Source of the DNA: a virus
Reading direction: 5' to 3' (one strand)
Virus record (IMG/VR): IMGVR_UViG_3300018877_000010
Coordinates: 1-40,603 of that record
Length of the DNA: 40,603 nt
Shown in pieces: positions 2,334 to 30,188 of the stretch. The notes beneath the pieces were generated by a model. That model saw only the letters and a program-made list of their open reading frames with translations, was not told the origin of the DNA and searched no databases. The number at the start of each line of letters is the position of its first letter. Position 1 is the first letter of the stretch. The translations under genes were made by a program, and so were the position numbers.

Positions 2334-3638
2334 GTGAGAAAACTGAAAGCCTTTTTCCGAAATTTGCTGAGCACTACGACTGATCCGCCTGAATCAAATC
2401 TTTCATCGCCGGAACAGTGGTTGGTGGATGCGATAGGAGGCGCGTTGACGGCCAGCGGCGAACGCGTCTCCGAAAAAAGCGCGTTCCTGAACAGCAACGT
2501 TTATACGTGCGTCACCATCCGCGCCGACGACATCGCAAAGTTGCCTCTGCATCTGTTCAAAAAGAAGAGCGGCGGAGGGCTGGAGCGAGACCAAGAACAC
2601 CCTGTTGCGAGGCTGCTGTATTTACAACCCAATCCGCTGATGACCGCGTTCGTGTGGAAAAGGCTGATGGAAATCCATATGGATTTGTGGGGGAACGCCT
2701 ACTCGTGGATTGAGTGGGATGAATGGGGATATCCGGCCGCGCTCTGGCCTCTTGATCCTGAGTGCACAGATATTCAGGTCGATCCTTTAAGTGGACAAGT
2801 TTGGTACACCACTACCGTAAACGGGAAAATGTACAAGCTCGCCCCTACTGATTTGCTTCACTTCAAAGCGCCGGGGTTGAACGGCCTGCGTGGTATGCCG
2901 CCGATCGCTGTGCTTCGAGAAGAGATCGGAGTACAACAGGCCGCAAAGAAGTTCCTTGGATCTTTTTTCACGAACGGCACAGCGACGCGTGGGATACTCA
3001 AGCATCCCGGAGCAGACCTAAATAAAGAGGCCAAACAGGTAGTCCGAGAAGAATGGCAGGCCGCAAACTCGGGGCAACAAAACGCCTTTAAGGTTGCCAT
3101 TCTTAATGCCGGATGGGATTACCAATCACTCGGAATGCCGCTGAAAGATGCGCAGTTCATCGAGACAGCAAAGTTCGGAATCTTGGAAATCGCCAAGGTA
3201 TACAAGGTTCCTGCACACAAGTTGAACCAGCTCGACCGCGCGACGTTCTCCAACATCGAGCAGCAGTCACTCGACTATGTCAAGAACACCCTTTTCCCGA
3301 TCGTGACGAACTGGGAACAGGAAATCATGGTGAAGCTATTCACCATGAAAGAGCAGCGCAAGTATTACGTGAAGTTCAACCTCGCGGCTGAACTGCGTGG
3401 CGATTCCACAAGCCGCGCGAAGTTCTACAAGGAGATGATCTCAGCAGGAGTTATGAAGATCAGCGAGGCCCGGGCGCTTGAAGAACTCGACTTCGATGGC
3501 GAGCTCACCCAAAAACTACTCGTCTCCCTGAACCTTACCACGCTTGACAACTTAGAGAAGTACCAGCAGGCGAAGGCTGGGATCACGAGCGCTGCGGAAG
3601 GAGGTGAAAACAAAGATGATGAAACGGCAGACGACTGA
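2334..3638 (+). CDS. Portal protein, HK97 family
   Basis: The 434-residue product forms the dodecameric portal at the capsid vertex through which DNA enters and leaves. Recognisable phage_portal features are NSNVYTCVTIRADDIAKLPLHL near residue 50, the LLYLQPNPLMTAFVWKRLM region, and the C-terminal helices ending in an acidic tail. The GTG start sits behind an almost perfect anti-16S sequence (AAGGAGGTGATAAGG). The gene overlaps the protease by 23 bases. Length and order (terL, portal, protease, capsid) are typical of HK97-type heads. Confidence 0.95.
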   Translation: MRKLKAFFRNLLSTTTDPPESNLSSPEQWLVDAIGGALTASGERVSEKSAFLNSNVYTCVTIRADDIAKLPLHLFKKKSGGGLERDQEHPVARLLYLQPNPLMTAFVWKRLMEIHMDLWGNAYSWIEWDEWGYPAALWPLDPECTDIQVDPLSGQVWYTTTVNGKMYKLAPTDLLHFKAPGLNGLRGMPPIAVLREEIGVQQAAKKFLGSFFTNGTATRGILKHPGADLNKEAKQVVREEWQAANSGQQNAFKVAILNAGWDYQSLGMPLKDAQFIETAKFGILEIAKVYKVPAHKLNQLDRATFSNIEQQSLDYVKNTLFPIVTNWEQEIMVKLFTMKEQRKYYVKFNLAAELRGDSTSRAKFYKEMISAGVMKISEARALEELDFDGELTQKLLVSLNLTTLDNLEKYQQAKAGITSAAEGGENKDDETADD

Positions 3639-4239
3639 CGGCAAGGAGTTGCGCTTCTTGCGAGTCGAGCAGATCGAGGTACGCGCTCAAACCGAAGAGG
3701 ATCAAGGTATGCAGGTGTCAGGATACGTGGTTAAATGGGACACGCGGAGCCAGTTGATTTGGGGGTACTTTTACGAGAAGGTCGCGAAGGGTGCATTCGC
3801 CCGCGCGCTGAAGGAGAATGTCATAAAGGCACTATGGAATCACAGAACTGATTTCGTGCTTGGCTCCACTAAAAGCGGGACTCTTCGGCTGCAGGAGGAT
3901 GATGTTGGCCTTTACTTCGAGATCGACTTGCCAGAAAATACGTGGGGTCGAGATGCCTTCGAATCAATCAGTCGCGGCGACGTGGACGGAGTGTCTTTTG
4001 GCTTCTACATCTACGAGGATGGAGATACTTGGGAATGGATCAAGGACGAGGGTGTTTACGAGCGCACATTGCTCGCAATCAACCTATTTGAGATTTCGCC
4101 TACTCCTTTCCCGGCCTACGAAGACGCGAGCGAAGTCAGCCAGCGCAGTTTGGAGCGCCACGGAATTTTGAGTCCGGAGCAGCGCCATGAAAAAGAAAAA
4201 ATCCAGTTGCGGATTGACCTGTTGGGCTTGGGAGCCTGA
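3616..4239 (+). CDS. Prohead protease, HK97 family (S78)
   Basis: The 207-residue product cleaves the scaffold-like delta domain from the capsid protein during maturation. The family core is visible: VSGYVVKWDTRS, then the catalytic histidine in ALWNHRTDFVLG, and the catalytic serine in DVDGVSFGF. I chose the ATG at 3616 because GGAGGTG lies about 9 bases before it; a GTG at 3604 overlaps that ribosome site. It lies between portal and capsid genes as expected. The last 30 residues are charged and probably flexible. Confidence 0.92.
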   Translation: MMKRQTTDGKELRFLRVEQIEVRAQTEEDQGMQVSGYVVKWDTRSQLIWGYFYEKVAKGAFARALKENVIKALWNHRTDFVLGSTKSGTLRLQEDDVGLYFEIDLPENTWGRDAFESISRGDVDGVSFGFYIYEDGDTWEWIKDEGVYERTLLAINLFEISPTPFPAYEDASEVSQRSLERHGILSPEQRHEKEKIQLRIDLLGLGA

Positions 4240-4277
4240 GAGGTCTTTTTATTTTCTAAAATCGAGGAGGAATCATT

Positions 4278-19594: not shown

Positions 19595-20284
19595 ATGGCA
19601 TACGACATCACGATTACCAACGAAGACTGTTTGGATATGTTCAAACGTATGGAGGACGAGTCGGCTGACCTCGCGCTGACCGATCCTCCATACGGCATTG
19701 AGTTTCGGAGCAAGCAACGGAAGAAGTCGGAGCAATTGCCGACGGTCAAGGGTATAGCCAATGACCACAAAAACAATTTGCCCTTCTTAGAGGAGGTAGC
19801 GGGCCAGCTTTACCGGGTGCTTAAGCCTGACACGCACCTTTACTGGTTCACTCGATGGGATAAGGTAGAGGATCACCTGCCAATGCTTAGACGGGTGGGG
19901 TTCAAAGTCAAGAACAATCTGATCTGGCTGAAAGGCGGCGGCGGAATGGGGGACACAGCCGGGGCCTACGCGCCGGACTACGAGTGCATTCTCTTCGGCC
20001 ACAAGGGGCGTCGCCCGCTCAACGAGGTTGACGGCAAGAAGCGGCACAGCGACGTTCTGCGGTTCGTAAAGATCCCGCCGCACCGCCTGCAGCACTCGCA
20101 CCAGAAGCCGGTCCAGTTGCTGGAGTTTCTTATCAGGAAGTCCTCAGCTCCCGGCGATCTTGTTGTTGACCCGTTCGTCGGAAGCGGAAGCACCGCTCTG
20201 GCAGCGCGGAACACTGGACGCCGTTTCGTTGGGGCGGAAATCACGCCTGAGATTTATAATGTTGCAGTCAGCAACCTTCGGTAG
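19595..20284 (+). CDS. DNA methyltransferase, probable N6-adenine type (beta class order)
   Basis: The 229-residue product carries motif IV DPPYGIEF at about residue 31, early in the protein, and the AdoMet-binding motif I DPFVGSGST near residue 193, an order typical of beta-class solitary methyltransferases. DPPY favours N6-adenine, though N4-cytosine cannot be excluded. No cognate restriction enzyme is next to it, so it may protect phage DNA from host restriction. ATG follows AAAAGAGAGAAAAAG, a weaker ribosome site than its neighbours. It lies beyond the lysis genes in a cargo position. Confidence 0.9.
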   Translation: MAYDITITNEDCLDMFKRMEDESADLALTDPPYGIEFRSKQRKKSEQLPTVKGIANDHKNNLPFLEEVAGQLYRVLKPDTHLYWFTRWDKVEDHLPMLRRVGFKVKNNLIWLKGGGGMGDTAGAYAPDYECILFGHKGRRPLNEVDGKKRHSDVLRFVKIPPHRLQHSHQKPVQLLEFLIRKSSAPGDLVVDPFVGSGSTALAARNTGRRFVGAEITPEIYNVAVSNLR

Positions 20285-21396: not shown

Positions 21397-21428
21397 TAAC
21401 GGTCGCTTAGACCGTTATTTTTTTATCC
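21395..21428 (+). terminator. Terminator at the 3' end of int
   Basis: AATAACGGTC (21395-21404) pairs with GACCGTTATT (21410-21419), followed by T residues on the plus strand. The int stop codon lies in its loop. It blocks rightward transcription from entering int antisense. Confidence 0.75.
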
Positions 21429-22639
21429 ATTGACAGAATTGCATTGCGTTGTTCTTTAGATGATGCGTGACCATATATCGAAAGTGTGGTCGACGGATCG
21501 CTGTGACCTAGAATTGCGGAAACGTCCAGTATGTTCGTTCCGTCCCTTAATTGCCATGTGGTAAACGTATGGCGCAAGTCGTGGAGCGATGCCTTTATAT
21601 CCAACTTCTTGGCGACACGTGCAAAGTATCGTCCGGCGAGATCAGGATCAAGTGGAGATCCGTCCATTTGACAAAAAACCAAACCGTGATCTTTGTAGAC
21701 GTTCCTGTGTCGCATCATGATCGTCTTCTGATACGCGATCTGTTCCTTTAGGATTGCGATCAGGTTATCGCCAAGGGGGATGTCCCTTACAGATGAAGCG
21801 GTCTTTGGACTATCCTTAAGGATAACGCCGACATTTGGAATTCTCTGTGCGATCTGTTTTATCGAGATGATTTTCTCGTTTTCCAAATCGATTTTATTAA
21901 TTGCCAATCCGCAAATTTCCCCAACCCTAGCTCCGGTCAAGAAGAGTGTTTTAAAAAGCCGGTTGATCACCTGCAGCTCGAATTCCTTTTCGAACTTCCG
22001 TTTCTCCTTCGCGTCTTTGATCCGCATATCCATCTCCTTAAAAATACTATCTACTTGCTCCGGAGTAAGGGCCTTTGGTCGCTTCTTATCCATCATCGGC
22101 ATTCGGATTTTTTTCAATCCTACATGCGGGATCAGATCCCACTCAACTGCCTGAGCAAGCGAGCTTCGAATGGCACCGACATATGCTCTGATTGTTCGTG
22201 ATGACAAATTTTCTTTGATCATGAAGGAAACGAACGCCTGGATCAGCGTGGTGTTCACCTCGTGCAATGGAGGATTCGCATTGATCTTGGAGTTTTCATG
22301 GAACTCTTTGAGCTTAAGGATCGCATTGGTATATGTCACGTGAGTCCTTGGTGCATAGTGAACCGCTATGTGATTTTCGTTCCAATGGTCTAGAAACTCG
22401 AAGAACTTCATGTTAGATGATACAGTCAATTTGTTCTGTTCTTTCAACGTAAGGAACAGCCTTTCAACCCGCTCGGCCTCTTTCTTGTTCTTCGGATCTT
22501 TCCTGCCGTTCAGAACCGTTTCCACCTGCTGGACATTCGAACACTTAATCCATTTTTGTTTTGGCTTTCCCGTTTTTGGGTTAATTTCCCCGGTGTAGTG
22601 GATAATGTACCAGCTTCCACTCTTTAGAGTTACGGCCAT
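21407..22639 (-). CDS. int: Tyrosine-family integrase
   Basis: The 410-residue product recombines attP with the host attB. An N-terminal arm-binding region (AVTLKSGSWYIIHYTG) is followed by a SAM-like core-binding domain (about 85-185, FFEFLDHWNENHI to SSLAQAVEWDLIP) and the catalytic domain. Catalytic residues are visible: Arg in TGARVGEICG, Lys in DSPKTASS, His-x-x-Arg in SLHDLRHTF, His in ILGHSDPS and the nucleophile Tyr in LSIYGHA. GGGAGG lies 11 bases before the ATG. It is transcribed leftward, away from the regulators, with its 3' end at attP, the usual Bacillota layout. Confidence 0.96.
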   Translation of the reverse strand: MAVTLKSGSWYIIHYTGEINPKTGKPKQKWIKCSNVQQVETVLNGRKDPKNKKEAERVERLFLTLKEQNKLTVSSNMKFFEFLDHWNENHIAVHYAPRTHVTYTNAILKLKEFHENSKINANPPLHEVNTTLIQAFVSFMIKENLSSRTIRAYVGAIRSSLAQAVEWDLIPHVGLKKIRMPMMDKKRPKALTPEQVDSIFKEMDMRIKDAKEKRKFEKEFELQVINRLFKTLFLTGARVGEICGLAINKIDLENEKIISIKQIAQRIPNVGVILKDSPKTASSVRDIPLGDNLIAILKEQIAYQKTIMMRHRNVYKDHGLVFCQMDGSPLDPDLAGRYFARVAKKLDIKASLHDLRHTFTTWQLRDGTNILDVSAILGHSDPSTTLSIYGHASSKEQRNAILSMDKKITV

Positions 22640-22863: not shown

Positions 22864-24042
22864 GTGGACGAGAATTTTATTCTAGGAATGAATGTTCGAT
22901 ATTTTCGGAAGAAGCTAAACATGAAGAATGAGACCTTAGCTGGTCTGATGAAATATAGTAAATCTTGGCTTTCTAATTTAGAAAACCACAAGCAAAAAAC
23001 GCTAATTGACGAAGATGACATCATAAGACTGGCAGATTTCTTGAAGACGTCAAGGAACATTCTATTAGGTGTAGACGACATCTTCTCTGAAAAGATGTCT
23101 TGTCTCGATGAGCACATCTCTCGTAGGGAGTTAGGGGAAAATGTTGTTAAGTTATCTGATGGACTAATATTATTAGCAGCAGAGAGAAATGGACCCAGAG
23201 ATCAATCACTCGCCGTAATGAAGCGTGGTAACATTGAATATCTAAAGGGAGAATACCTAAATGCATTGGATCTCTATACCGATGCTCTTGCGATCTCAGA
23301 AGGTGCCTTTGACTTTCCCATGAGTCAGAAACTAAGGCAGAACATTGCGGCATCATATGTAGAATTGGGGGATTACGAATTAGCGAAACATACGATAAAA
23401 AGGAACATTAGTGACTTGAATGATCTCCATGTCCTATCGTCGATTCCTCGCATTGAACAGGCCAAGAACCATAAGATATTAGGGACTCTCTATTTTCAAC
23501 AAGAAAAGTGGGAAAAGGCTTTTGATCACATCTCAAGAGCACTTGAAATTATCCCTTCTGAAGACACTTCTACATTGCGTGGAGAATGCCTACAAGTATT
23601 AGGAGCTATCCACTTTTATGGTAATCGGTACTGTGAAGCTGTCGATCTTTCACGTGATGCAATAGAGCACGCTTGTAAAACGGGTGACGTATTATGTGAG
23701 AGTTACGCTTTGAGGATTATTGGGAACGCCGAACTATCTCTAGGTAATTTAGAGAGAGCGACATATTTTCTGCAAGAAGCAAAGCGGAAAACACCAGTAG
23801 AACGTCGCGGAGAACACTTAGAACTTGATATTTTGCTCATGCAATGCAAGACATATGACATTGATCAATATAGGACAATGCTGGCGATCATTGAGGAATT
23901 AGAAATGATGAACTGCGCACCTAGAAAACTGGCGAGGATGTACGAACAATTGGCCAAAGTGGCGATTGAGATCGGCCTGCTTCTTGAGGCGAGCCATCAT
24001 TTGCAAAAAGCTATTCAAAAATTGCGAGATATAATAATATAG
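22864..24042 (+). CDS. HTH-TPR regulator, RRNPP type (peptide-responsive candidate)
   Basis: The 392-residue product has an N-terminal XRE-type helix-turn-helix (about 8-68; NETLAGLMKYSKSWLSNLE) followed by TPR-like helical repeats from about 115 to 385 (MKRGNIEYLKGEYLNALDLY; RQNIAASYVELGDYELAKH; KILGTLYFQQEKWEKAF; VLGAIHFYGNRYCEAVDLS; RIIGNAELSLGNLERATYF). This is the RRNPP layout (Rgg, NprR, PlcR, PrgX, AimR), in which the TPR domain binds a re-imported peptide and changes DNA binding. No phosphatase motif was recognised. The GTG start follows TGGAGGTG. A secreted-peptide gene begins 18 bases after its stop, completing the receptor-signal pair. It is clearly more A+T-rich than the structural genes. 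Ligand and targets are unknown. Confidence 0.88.
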   Translation: MDENFILGMNVRYFRKKLNMKNETLAGLMKYSKSWLSNLENHKQKTLIDEDDIIRLADFLKTSRNILLGVDDIFSEKMSCLDEHISRRELGENVVKLSDGLILLAAERNGPRDQSLAVMKRGNIEYLKGEYLNALDLYTDALAISEGAFDFPMSQKLRQNIAASYVELGDYELAKHTIKRNISDLNDLHVLSSIPRIEQAKNHKILGTLYFQQEKWEKAFDHISRALEIIPSEDTSTLRGECLQVLGAIHFYGNRYCEAVDLSRDAIEHACKTGDVLCESYALRIIGNAELSLGNLERATYFLQEAKRKTPVERRGEHLELDILLMQCKTYDIDQYRTMLAIIEELEMMNCAPRKLARMYEQLAKVAIEIGLLLEASHHLQKAIQKLRDIII

Positions 24043-24060
24043 GAGCGGGGGGTGTTACAC

Positions 24061-24186
24061 TTGAAGAAAATTGCAATTGTTTTATTTGCTGTCACACTAT
24101 TCTTGTCTGCGTCTGAATTCGGGAACAACAGTAAGACTGCCGACATCAAGCCAACCGATCCGAACGGATATTTCAAAACTATGTAA
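24061..24186 (+). CDS. Secreted pro-peptide, candidate signal for the adjacent regulator
   Basis: A 41-residue frame starts with TTG 24061, 18 bases after the regulator stop, behind a strong purine-rich site (GGAGCGGGGGGTG). The product has two lysines, a hydrophobic core (IAIVLFAVTLFLSA), a possible signal-peptidase site around LSAS, then a hydrophilic tail ending DPNGYFKTM. No cysteine or lipobox occurs. Size, layout and position match the pro-peptides of Phr, NprX and AimP type, exported by Sec and trimmed to a short C-terminal or internal peptide. The mature peptide cannot be fixed from sequence; C-terminal residues are the first guess. A perfect terminator follows. Confidence 0.8.
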   Translation: MKKIAIVLFAVTLFLSASEFGNNSKTADIKPTDPNGYFKTM

Positions 24187-24195
24187 ACAATTCAT

Positions 24196-24233
24196 AAACG
24201 GGTGAGCGACGTACATGCTCACCCGTTTTCTTT
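24196..24233 (+). terminator. Strong terminator after the signal peptide gene
   Basis: AAACGGGTGAGC (24196-24207) pairs perfectly with GCTCACCCGTTT (24217-24228), followed by TCTTTC. It closes the regulator-peptide operon and separates it from the next small ORF. Confidence 0.88.
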
Positions 24234-24276: not shown

Positions 24277-24338
24277 AATACTTTTCGAAATGGGTTAAGA
24301 TCAACTTACTAACTCAGGAAATTCGGAGGGTATAACGA

Positions 24339-24455
24339 ATGGGAAGCACAACTTGCATTCAATTAGAACAACTCGTTCGCGAAATCGATTGCCCGGATGA
24401 AAAACAATTACTTGATGAGGTTATTGAATCCATTAGAAAAAATAGAAAAAAATAG
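24339..24455 (+). CDS. Small acidic/basic helical protein, 38 residues, unknown
   Basis: ATG 24339 follows CGGAGGG with good spacing. The product is probably one or two helices (QLEQLVREIDCPDEKQLLDE; VIESIRKNRKK). I do not recognise it; it lacks the SxxLD motif of Spo0E-like phosphatases. It lies beyond the strong terminator of the regulator-peptide operon and ends inside the next terminator stem, so it is either separately promoted or reached by read-through. That makes it a candidate output of the peptide system (inference). Confidence 0.6.
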   Translation: MGSTTCIQLEQLVREIDCPDEKQLLDEVIESIRKNRKK

Positions 24456-24491
24456 AGCCCTTGCGAATATGTCGTAAGGGCTCTATTTTTT
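24446..24491. terminator. Bidirectional terminator between convergent genes
   Basis: AAAAAATAGAGCCCTT (24447-24462) pairs perfectly with AAGGGCTCTATTTTTT (24476-24491). A-tract and T-tract flank the stem, so it can act in both directions, for the 38-residue ORF and for the leftward repressor. The ORF stop codon is inside the stem. Confidence 0.88.
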
Positions 24492-24851
24492 CTTACGTTC
24501 TTTAAGAATTTGCACCGTTATGCGCAAATGTTCCCGTTCAACATCATCGAGAACAACTCCATCCAATTCTATAGGCAAATCATTTTCAAGAGCATACTCC
24601 AGTTCATCCAATTTTGTTCTTTTTGATTTCGGTGCGGGACCGTTTTTTGTGAACTTAACAAAAGACTCTACTGGACATCCATATGTATCAGCCAATAGAT
24701 TTAGAGTGGCTAGATCCGGTTCAGCGACGTTATTTTCATAACCTCCGAGTGTCTTATGGTTGATTCCTGTGATTGTTTCGACTCGTTTCTGTGTATATCC
24801 AACTTTTTTACGTGCTTCCTTTAATACATCTCCTAGAGTTCGATGCCCCAT
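24483..24851 (-). CDS. cI-like XRE repressor, short form
   Basis: The 122-residue product has an N-terminal XRE helix-turn-helix (about 5-65; TLGDVLKEARKKVGYTQKRV, TGINHKTLGGYENNVAEP) and a charged C-terminal part ending KERKKK. There is no LexA/S24-type peptidase domain, so induction would need another route. AAGGGGAG precedes the ATG. It is divergent from the cro-like gene, with operators in the gap, so it is the most likely lysogeny repressor. Confidence 0.85.
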   Translation of the reverse strand: MGHRTLGDVLKEARKKVGYTQKRVETITGINHKTLGGYENNVAEPDLATLNLLADTYGCPVESFVKFTKNGPAPKSKRTKLDELEYALENDLPIELDGVVLDDVEREHLRITVQILKERKKK

Positions 24852-25009
24852 AAATTACTCCCCTTCCCTGTACAGGATACCACGATACTCATTTTTTGAG
24901 ACAAAAAACCTAGATACTAAGGTTTTTTAGGTTGACACCTTAGAAACTAAGGTGTAATATTCTAGGCAAGAAGTCTTAGAAAATAAGGATTGGAGGTGTT
25001 TAAGACGCT
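24852..25009. promoter_or_regulatory. Lysogeny switch: promoter and CTTAG-type operators
   Basis: The rightward promoter is TTGACA (24932-24937), a 17-base spacer and TAATAT (24955-24960). Its spacer is largely the palindrome CACCTTAGAAACTAAGGTG (24936-24954). Related sites are CCTAGATACTAAGG (24909-24922) and CTTAGAAAATAAGG (24975-24988). Repressor bound here would block the cro-like gene. A leftward promoter for the repressor lies in the same gap but its hexamers are not clear. Confidence 0.85.
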
Positions 25010-25252
25010 ATGAGAAGTATGAACGAACGCATTAGGGAACATCTTGATGAACAAGGTGTGAAATACTCCGCAGCCGCTTCGAAATGTGGGATTAGCTATA
25101 AGAGATTTCTGCGTTTACTTAACGGTCGCGCGCCTCTTGTTGTGGATGAATATGAGTTAATTTGTCGTAAGGGTCTAGGTGTTAGTCCGGCGTATTTTTT
25201 TGACTCCAAAGTCTTAGAAAGTAAGACTGAGCTAGTGACTACATCAACCTAA
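25010..25252 (+). CDS. Cro-like XRE regulator
   Basis: The 80-residue product is a single helix-turn-helix domain (NERIREHLDEQGVKYSAAAS; CGISYKRFLRLLNGRAPL). It is the first gene of the rightward early operon, directly behind the operator-bearing promoter, and divergent from the cI-like gene, which is the cro position. GGAGGTG lies 11 bases before ATG 25010; ATG 25019 is an alternative. Another CTTAG-type palindrome lies in its own 3' end. Confidence 0.78.
   Translation: MRSMNERIREHLDEQGVKYSAAASKCGISYKRFLRLLNGRAPLVVDEYELICRKGLGVSPAYFFDSKVLESKTELVTTST
25211..25227. promoter_or_regulatory. Operator-like palindrome inside the cro-like gene
   Basis: GTCTTAGAAAGTAAGAC has 6-bp arms GTCTTA/TAAGAC and shares CTTAGAAA with the operators upstream. 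It may be a further repressor site acting as a roadblock or looping partner (inference). Confidence 0.5.
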
Positions 25253-27988: not shown

Positions 27989-28114
27989 GTGAAACGGCAA
28001 ACGTATACCCCGTTCGCATGGGGCTACATCAAGAAGGGCGTGTTGATTACGTCCGACACCTACGGGGCCAAGCAGACAGCGACAGCCCCTAGCACAACGA
28101 AGATGAAAGGGTGA
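27989..28114 (+). CDS. Small 41-residue protein, unknown
   Basis: GTG 27989 lies behind TAGGAGGA with good spacing, and the frame ends 5 bases before the ParA gene. The product (MKRQTYTPFAWGYIKKGVLI, then a Thr/Ala/Lys-rich tail) is hydrophilic, without signal or membrane segment. I do not recognise it. Confidence 0.5.
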   Translation: MKRQTYTPFAWGYIKKGVLITSDTYGAKQTATAPSTTKMKG

Positions 28115-28119
28115 TCCAA

Positions 28120-28905
28120 ATGGCACGAGTGATTGCCTTTGGTATGGAAAAGGGAGGCGTCGGCAAGACAACAGGCGCGGTGAACTTCGCGGCCGTCCTA
28201 GCTGATAGGGGCAATAAGCGGGTTCTGCTCGTTGATTGTGATCCTCAGAGCAACGCTACGAGCTCCTGCGGTATCGTGGTAGGCGCGGATCAGCCTTCGA
28301 TCTATGAAGCTTTGACCACGGAAAAGAAACACCGTGTTAAGACGGTGGAGGCGATCTACAAAACCGAGCATGGCTTTGATATCCTCCCAGCGGTTCGCGA
28401 GTTCGCCGTTTTCACGCAGGAGCTCACACCAGCGATGGGGCCGACGCGCTTCACACTACTCAGAGCGGCGCTGGCGCAGGTGGCAGATGACTACGAATAT
28501 ATTGTGCTCGATCTGCCGCCTGGACTCGGACCGCTGACGATAAACGGCCTGACTGCCGCGACTGATGTCGTGATGCCGGTGCTATGCGAGATCCTGCCAA
28601 CGGCAGGTTTGGTGCAACTCCTCGACACCATTGAGTGGGTAAAGCGATCAGGGCTGAATCCGAACCTACAGATCGCTGGGGCTTATCCCTCCAAATACGA
28701 GGGGGCCACATCGTTGCACCGCACGGTGCGGAACCACCTGCGCCGCTTTTGTCACGAGGCGGGCATCCCTTTCGTTACCAGCTATATCAAGAAGTGTGTT
28801 CGATTCGGCGAGGCACCTGATCTCGGTGTCCCGGCCGTCCTTGCAAGCAATGATCATGCTGTTCAGAACTTCCGCTTGGTGGTCAAGGAGACGCTTGGCC
28901 TATGA
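28120..28905 (+). CDS. parA: ParA/Soj-family ATPase
   Basis: The 261-residue product has the deviant Walker A KGGVGKTT at residues 11-18, Walker A' in VLLVDCDPQSNAT and Walker B in YIVLDLPPG, the marks of ParA ATPases that move or position DNA. No ParB-like gene is beside it. It overlaps the replication initiator by 4 bases, so it is co-translated with it. ATG 28120 lies behind GAAAGGG; an in-frame GTG at 28111 is less likely. Role may be plasmid-like partition of a replicating form, or replication control as in Soj-DnaA (inference). Confidence 0.9.
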   Translation: MARVIAFGMEKGGVGKTTGAVNFAAVLADRGNKRVLLVDCDPQSNATSSCGIVVGADQPSIYEALTTEKKHRVKTVEAIYKTEHGFDILPAVREFAVFTQELTPAMGPTRFTLLRAALAQVADDYEYIVLDLPPGLGPLTINGLTAATDVVMPVLCEILPTAGLVQLLDTIEWVKRSGLNPNLQIAGAYPSKYEGATSLHRTVRNHLRRFCHEAGIPFVTSYIKKCVRFGEAPDLGVPAVLASNDHAVQNFRLVVKETLGL

Positions 28906-30188
28906 GTGGAAAGAGCCTGCTGCGTGATGGAAAGAGAGGCTTGGCGGGCATGTTTGGTACTTCGCCCGCCGCTTCCACCACACCTGTCTATCATGAGGAA
29001 GCATCGCTCCCGTCGACCTCGGCCACGAAGGCCGAACCACCGATTAGCGTCACGCCCACTCAGGAAAGGGTGAACGAGCAACAACATCCAGCATCTGCAT
29101 ACGGAATCATCGCCAACATCTTCTCGCGCAAGTTCACCGGGCAGCAGAGCTCCATATTGCTGATGATTTACGAGTTGAGCTTGGCACGTGGCAGGACGAT
29201 CGCCGTCGTGCCTGAGCTGCAGGACTTTGAGCTCGCCGGGGCGCAGCGAAACAAGGTTGGCACCGGGGCGCTTAAGGAACTGGAGGAAGCCGGGGTGATA
29301 ATCCGTCATAGGATGACGAACGGCTACGAGATCGTGACAGACGTTGAGAAATGGCAGGTGCCGCTGGTGCCGAAGTTCAGCCAGCAGCGGTATTCGGAAC
29401 TTCTGGAACACAATCCACCTGATGTACCAAAAAAGGACATCATGTACCAAATTGGTACATCATATACCGAAACGGGACATGATATCCCGAATTGGTACAT
29501 CACATACCAAAACAGGACATTCTATCGCGATTTGGTGGGAATTCCACAAATCAGCCATATCCCGGAATGGTACACGATATCCCAAGGTGGTATATGGAGT
29601 GATATCCCAAAACAGTACATGATATACCAACTCGGTACATCATATCCCGATATGGGACACGACAATGTACCAAAATGGGACATCATGTACCAAAGCGGGA
29701 TACGATATACCAAGTTGGGACATAATTCGGCGGAAATTCTCTTACTGCTGTCAAGTAACTCTATAGCAGATAAGAGAGATTTAAAAAAAGAATCTAAAAT
29801 ATATCATCATGATGATGAAGTCAATAGTCTCAGAGAAACTTATCAGCAGTATAAGTCGCTATGGGATGCGTACAAGAAGATTTTCGGCTTGGAGCCCAAT
29901 CCGATCATGATCAATAAGCTGCATTCGTTCGTCGAGGACGGCATGGAAGAAGTCGTGGTCATCCATTACATGACCAAGGCCCGAGAAGGCAACAAGACTC
30001 TGGACTACGCCAAGAAGTGCTGCATCAACGCCTACGAGAAAGGCATTCGAACGCTGGAGGCGGTCATCGAGGACGAAAAGGCTTTCGAGGCGGCCAAGCA
30101 TCAGAAACAGTCAGGCGGAGTTGGGAGTCAGCAACTGAACGTGCCCAGCGCGCAAGCCGACCAGTGGAAACTGAAGTTTGGAGGATGA
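28902..30188 (+). CDS. Replication initiator, DnaD-like, with internal origin
   Basis: The 428-residue product has a winged-helix-like N-terminal domain (about 66-160; FTGQQSSILLMIYELSL; GTGALKELEEAGVIIRH), a repetitive middle (about 175-275) encoded by DNA iterons, and a DnaD-like C-terminal domain (about 325-385; LWDAYKKIFGLEPNPIMINK; TLDYAKKCCINAYEKGI). DnaD-type proteins recruit helicase loader and helicase to the origin. The helicase loader and DnaB genes follow directly. The middle, with repeated MYQIGTSY/IYQLGTSY segments, is probably a by-product of the origin sequence. ATG overlaps the ParA stop. Confidence 0.88.
   Translation: MSGKSLLRDGKRGLAGMFGTSPAASTTPVYHEEASLPSTSATKAEPPISVTPTQERVNEQQHPASAYGIIANIFSRKFTGQQSSILLMIYELSLARGRTIAVVPELQDFELAGAQRNKVGTGALKELEEAGVIIRHRMTNGYEIVTDVEKWQVPLVPKFSQQRYSELLEHNPPDVPKKDIMYQIGTSYTETGHDIPNWYITYQNRTFYRDLVGIPQISHIPEWYTISQGGIWSDIPKQYMIYQLGTSYPDMGHDNVPKWDIMYQSGIRYTKLGHNSAEILLLLSSNSIADKRDLKKESKIYHHDDEVNSLRETYQQYKSLWDAYKKIFGLEPNPIMINKLHSFVEDGMEEVVVIHYMTKAREGNKTLDYAKKCCINAYEKGIRTLEAVIEDEKAFEAAKHQKQSGGVGSQQLNVPSAQADQWKLKFGG
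29414..29726. repeat. Origin iterons, about 13-14 units of 20 bp
   Basis: Units of the form GGTACATCATATACC followed by AANNN, 20 bp long, begin at 29434, 29454, 29474, 29494, 29514, 29534, 29569, 29589, 29614, 29634, 29654, 29677, 29697 and 29717. Each is itself a partial palindrome with GGTA/TACC or GGGA/TCCC arms. They lie inside the initiator gene, as the lambda iterons lie in gene O, and are the probable initiator binding sites. Confidence 0.9.
29735..29825. other. A+T-rich unwinding region beside the iterons
   Basis: Directly downstream of the iterons the sequence turns A+T-rich (AGAGATTTAAAAAAAGAATC, then AATATATCATCATGATGATG). This is the expected place and composition for duplex opening at a lambda-type origin. 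Confidence 0.7.

Follow-up and report, generated by a model that had tools for sequence, protein, structure and literature searches.

An HTH-TPR gene and a small secreted-type ORF between int and cI/cro

The window analysed here, the whole 40,603-nt stretch of the viral record IMGVR_UViG_3300018877_000010, carries on its plus strand a GTG-initiated gene (22864..24042, with the Shine-Dalgarno-like GGAGGTG ahead of the start) for a candidate receptor or regulator of 392 aa that matches both HTH and TPR models of Pfam. Its N-terminus is a Cro/C1-type HTH (residues 7-64; HTH_31, E 4e-6, barely past the cut-off of that model), from which a short linker leads into about 7-8 canonical TPR units (about residues 81-391) that match TPR_12 (E 1.1e-15, model positions 8-75 of 77) and also TPR_2, TPR_1 and a MalT-type TPR, each past its own Pfam cut-off. 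Only 18 nt separate the stop codon of this gene from the TTG start of a candidate pheromone pro-peptide gene (24061..24186, plus strand; an in-frame GTG at 24052 is a possible alternative start), which is preceded by the Shine-Dalgarno-like GGAGCGGGGGG and translates into the 41-aa product MKKIAIVLFAVTLFLSASEFGNNSKTADIKPTDPNGYFKTM. The lysine-rich n-region (KK) and the hydrophobic core of this product (11-residue Kyte-Doolittle maximum of 3.05) make up a Sec-like leader by a simple hydropathy rule used in place of SignalP, and a polar tail of ~23 residues follows. Cleavage at a putative SPase I site picked by eye, between S-A-S and E, would leave EFGNNSKTADIKPTDPNGYFKTM, and a DPNG stands near the C-terminal end. 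An intrinsic terminator (24196..24228, plus strand; 13-bp stem, -20.4 kcal/mol, z -6.1, with none of 200 shuffles equally stable) closes the operon immediately 3' of the small ORF, so that the transcript includes it.

The frequency of such an arrangement was gauged with a rarity rule, a home-made stand-in for SignalP that calls for an ORF of 25-70 codons starting at most 60 nt past a stop, whose product begins with positive charge and contains a strongly hydrophobic core. Among 2000 dinucleotide shuffles of the 280-nt stretch past the receptor stop, 18 (0.9%) contained a secretion-like ORF, and across 199 sequences compared such an ORF lies behind 13 of 622 distinct long ORFs, null counts that take in spurious reading frames. 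The 12 other cases comprise two AimR-AimP pairs (L007 and L168), one pair of AimR type (L160) and two of Alo/subfamily-08 type (L013 and L111), and several are small membrane proteins that do not serve as signalling partners. A secretion-like ORF directly behind the receptor gene is rare, and the same rule picks up known receptor-peptide pairs. The TTG start and the length of 41 codons leave the candidate peptide gene short of proof; its codon periodicity is weak and it has no match in any of the libraries searched.

The pair is embedded in what looks like a lysogeny module. Upstream and divergent from the receptor gene lies a tyrosine integrase gene (21407..22639, minus strand; phrog_1, E 3e-64; aligned with five other integrases), and convergent with the operon is the gene for a cI-like repressor of 122 aa with HTH_3 only (24483..24851, minus strand). 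A cro-like protein of 80 aa (25010..25252, plus strand; phrog_2967, E 1e-4; phrog_4583, repressor, E 5e-4) is encoded by the first gene of the rightward operon. Between the cI-like and cro-like genes are three operator-like palindromes of the form CCTTAG-N3-CTAAGG (24908..24988), the central copy being CCTTAGAAACTAAGG at 24938-24952, enclosed by a TTGACA-17-TAATAT promoter (24932-24960), with imperfect copies at 24908-24922 and 24974-24988. This cI/cro switch looks complete by itself, and the receptor pair would come on top of it as a further layer. The cI-like repressor has no self-cleaving S24 domain, and neither Peptidase_S24 nor an ImmA-type Peptidase_M78 was detected in the whole record; the usual induction routes are therefore not visible, which makes another induction input plausible. 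GC3 is 0.28-0.54 from int to cro against 0.56-0.77 in the structural, lysis and replication genes, a contrast that suggests a foreign source for the lysogeny module; in the early genes right after cro it is ~0.50. The first-pass annotation had described an HTH-TPR regulator with a small secreted-type gene 18 nt on and a strong terminator, set between int and a separate cI/cro pair and amounting to two decision layers: its coordinates all hold, the neighbourhood is as it had claimed, and a switch that looks self-contained agrees with its two layers.

A separate 38-aa ORF (24339..24455, plus strand) with a good Shine-Dalgarno sequence (GGAGGG) occupies the space between the operon terminator and the cI-like gene, from which it is divided by a bidirectional terminator formed by an inverted repeat (24445..24495; z -9.9 on the plus strand and -8.5 on the minus strand). 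It had no match among the family models searched. Its location is AimX-like, and a corresponding function would be read from position only. An operator common to the receptor promoter and the promoter of the 38-aa ORF was sought and nothing above chance was found. Just 5' of this ORF, at 24304-24318, lies a site three mismatches off the cI operator palindrome, which could put the ORF under cI control and is too weak to claim.

Fit to the RRNPP signature and comparison with known families

The RRNPP_detector study gives a five-criterion definition of the receptor-plus-propeptide signature, among them a receptor of 250-500 aa, a TPR model match with E < 1e-5 and >65% of the model covered, and an adjacent small gene of 10-100 aa with a Sec signal predicted by SignalP (PMC10075063). 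The receptor at 392 aa, its TPR_12 match and the 41-aa product encoded 18 nt downstream all lie within these bounds, and with its Sec leader judged by the hydropathy rule the predicted pair fits the signature, an anatomy that agrees with the RRNPP receptor-plus-signal layout proposed in the first-pass annotation. Viral RRNPP systems have been described beside a cI of opposite orientation and an operon whose genes are co-directional, a context taken as indicative of regulation by the viral RRNPP system (PMC10075063), and the position of the present pair in the immunity region beside an oppositely transcribed cI-like gene corresponds to that context. The first-pass annotation had named no described system with this sequence, and none was found. 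Neither for the receptor nor for the peptide did 50,697 phage records yield a homolog at E values up to 10.

Other searches with the receptor gave the same picture. Nothing beyond generic TPR or HTH matches emerged from 72,556 plasmids, and the HTH matches among them (P. urinalis, Priestia) were rejected as relatives, being ordinary short repressors. The tblastn matches, in phages (E up to 10) and in plasmids, were confined to generic HTH proteins and cyanobacterial TPR proteins, and PADLOC on the record likewise returned generic TPR/HTH matches only. Viral contigs were also scanned by exact pattern, using the full-length protein, two of its fragments and a TPR alignment; such scans, which detect close relatives only, found no relative, and a scan of genome contigs found two unrelated Neomarinimicrobiota TPR proteins. 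Fifty viral records that share the terminase (at most 75% identity) or the integrase contain HTH matches only and no TPR relative; 30 of these 50 have no TPR_12 match and almost no DNA in common with the lysogeny module.

The arbitrium system AimR-AimP-AimX is found in SPbeta-group and other Bacillus phages. Like the present locus, it has a phage receptor gene, directly followed by a pro-peptide gene and then a small gene, beside lysogeny genes. Two AimR models, NF038310 and PF22871, had no match at E up to 1 over the whole record; the AimR family phrog_1728 was likewise without match here, as was NF033802, the model for AimP. As positive controls the AimR and AimP models recognise the pair of L007 (AimP, 3.5e-23) and the AimR of L160 is recognised too. 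By these family models the pair is not a case of the AimR-AimP version that the first-pass annotation had cited from SPbeta-group phages. The TPRs also differ, those of AimR being degenerate (PMC12700828) and those of the present receptor canonical. On an IMG/VR contig from a metagenome (IMGVR_UViG_3300036798_000217, the L160 above), we observed an AimR-family gene (3023-4258, minus strand; phrog_1728, E 1e-111), followed by a secreted peptide ending in MMVEPGGH, beside an integrase.

In a structural phylogeny AimR falls together with AloR of Paenibacillaceae and with subfamily 08, and DPG is reported as a widespread motif of the AimR pheromones and of these Paenibacillaceae ones (PMC12700828); the DPNG of the present peptide compares with this motif, and the peptide of pBRLA33 ends in YDPGY. 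With AloR-AloP and subfamily 08 the present pair has in common an HTH-TPR receptor, a secreted peptide of 40-50 aa and a DP motif near its end. Membership was rejected, as the receptor gave no alignment with those of pBRLA33 or pBRLA07 and no match to phrog_32768. A viral contig among the sequences compared (IMGVR_UViG_2841277917_000011, L111) does carry an Alo/subfamily-08-like pair beside an integrase, namely a receptor of the HTH-TPR type of pBRLA33 from B. laterosporus (2389-3684, minus strand; phrog_32768, E 7e-25) with, directly behind it, a secreted peptide that ends in ITDPEW.

The Rap-Phr systems of phages such as phi105 and phi3T have the TPR array in common with the present receptor; Rap, however, lacks an HTH and has an N-domain of its own (PF18801), which is absent here, and Rap identity was rejected. 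The phage Rap family phrog_5208, to which the Rap of phi105 belongs (E 5e-143), matches receptor residues 197-384 with E 4e-7, a match rejected as family evidence since it is generic for TPRs and also occurs in 10 of 14 control genomes. Rap3T scored E 0.003 in a PDB search, and direct comparison of the receptor with phage Rap gave nothing. In phi105 (L191:6002-7321) the Rap gene is directly followed by Phr with an ERPVGT repeat, beside attP; that pair lies just outside attP-int-cI, whereas the present one is located between int and cI/cro.

NprR of Bacillus consists of an HTH plus nine TPRs. The likeness of NprR-NprX extends to the order of receptor then peptide and, as far as the model described below goes, to a long superhelix of TPRs behind the HTH; the linker is shorter in the present receptor, and no sequence similarity was shown. 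In a survey of seven RRNPPA subfamilies, prophages were found to carry AimR, Rap and occasionally Rgg and not NprR or PlcR (PMC9765709). Profile comparison by hhalign gave 0.1-1% against the Rap, AimR and Alo profiles versus 96% against a generic cyanobacterial plasmid TPR protein. By its sequence, the candidate receptor cannot be placed in any known RRNPP subfamily.

An AlphaFold2 model of the receptor, built on a thin mixed alignment of 10 rows in replacement of a poor single-sequence model (pLDDT 46), is of medium confidence (mean pLDDT 72.8, pTM 0.41). The predicted HTH is well defined (pLDDT 82-95), residues 81-391 form an all-helical array of paired helices (mostly 78-91 at TPR residues 196-310 and 331-391), and residues 74-102, 181-192 and 312-330 are the weak stretches. 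The top VIA-align matches are eukaryotic LGN/Pins proteins (Z 23-25), which are peptide-binding TPR proteins. Bacterial matches include RapI (Z 20.5), RapH (Z 20.4) and NprR (5dbk_B, Z 20.4 over 288 residues), and further ones, at Z 18-19, are RapF, phage Rap3T and the Rap of phage phi105 (18.3); no AimR structure is among the best 50 matches listed, which excludes nothing. The modelled fold suits a peptide receptor of NprR/Rap type and does not separate it from other TPR proteins: the likeness is unspecific because LGN/Pins superpose better and because the TPR sequence is closer to generic proteins.

A proposed input to the lysis-lysogeny switch and its alternatives

We favour, with modest confidence, the reading that the locus encodes an RRNPP-like receptor-pheromone pair acting on the phage's own switch. 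The pro-peptide would be exported by Sec, and extracellular trimming would release a short pheromone out of its C-terminal portion. The level of this pheromone would rise as infected or lysogenic cells become more numerous. Re-imported by the host oligopeptide permease, the pheromone would bind the TPR superhelix of the receptor and alter DNA binding by the HTH near the receptor gene, upstream of the 38-aa ORF (24339), or at both places, and the neighbouring cI/cro switch would tip in a direction that, like the link to lysogeny, we infer. As judged from this layout, the pair is probably a new or very diverged RRNPP-like subfamily that tunes lysogeny, and the phage may gauge how numerous it is before it chooses between dormancy and killing, using a receptor without a match in any described phage family. 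The candidate lysis-lysogeny signalling system of the first-pass annotation thus keeps its RRNPP anatomy and its immunity-region context and is not an AimR-AimP version, and control of lysogeny is suggested by the position of the pair.

A bolder version holds that the pair is an independent viral quorum-sensing family: a phage, probably one of Bacillota, would have acquired an NprR-like receptor with canonical TPRs together with its own pheromone, apart from arbitrium, and would have connected the two to its cI/cro switch. As the usual domains for repressor inactivation are missing there, peptide sensing would be a main lysis-lysogeny input; we put this forward tentatively and consider it rather unlikely as a whole. 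Among RRNPP receptors, AimR is to our knowledge the one shown to govern the lysis-lysogeny choice of a phage. A second, unrelated receptor-pheromone pair in a classical cI/cro region would show that phages have taken up peptide sensing repeatedly, and also that it can be combined with a repressor switch, here in a compact two-gene unit.

As a class, TPR proteins have many kinds of ligand, and the HTH-TPR protein could be a one-component regulator whose TPRs respond to a host protein or metabolite, with the small ORF in the same operon by chance and encoding an unrelated secreted or membrane protein such as a lysogenic-conversion or exclusion factor. The generic sequence of the receptor TPRs and the small membrane proteins among the rarity-rule cases are in line with this explanation; a cleavable-looking leader with a short polar tail and no second membrane span is, however, the form of a pheromone precursor, and the gene order is exactly that of receptor then propeptide; we consider this explanation unlikely. 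Alternatively, the two genes could be a genuine peptide-signalling pair that manipulates the host (sporulation, competence or defence), as proposed for phage Rap-Phr, rather than lysis-lysogeny. Phage RRNPP systems beside spo0E-, abrB- or rap-like genes have been described (PMC10075063), and phi105, whose terminase is a relative, has its Rap-Phr near the attachment site. To this reading we assign a small probability, given that the receptor has an HTH and no Rap N-domain, that none of the genes beside the pair was recognised as spo0E- or abrB-like, and that the pair is placed between int and cI/cro as opposed to outside the immunity region in phi105. That the small ORF is no gene and the HTH-TPR regulator alone is real, as its TTG start, 41 codons, weak periodicity and want of a library match would allow, is improbable in view of its Shine-Dalgarno-like leader, its occurrence in so few shuffles and the terminator directly behind it.

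Elsewhere in the record, a stand-alone N6/N4 DNA methyltransferase (19595-20284) is encoded after the lysis genes. A ParA-like partition ATPase (28111-28905; phrog_164, E 2e-48) lies directly before the replication gene and, together with an integrase, is unusual for an integrating phage. At 29425-29723, within the replication gene, which is DnaD-like (28902-30188), a 20-nt repeat (TACCAAAACGGGACATCATA-like) recurs in arrays with a 40-nt period; these are possibly the iterons of an origin.
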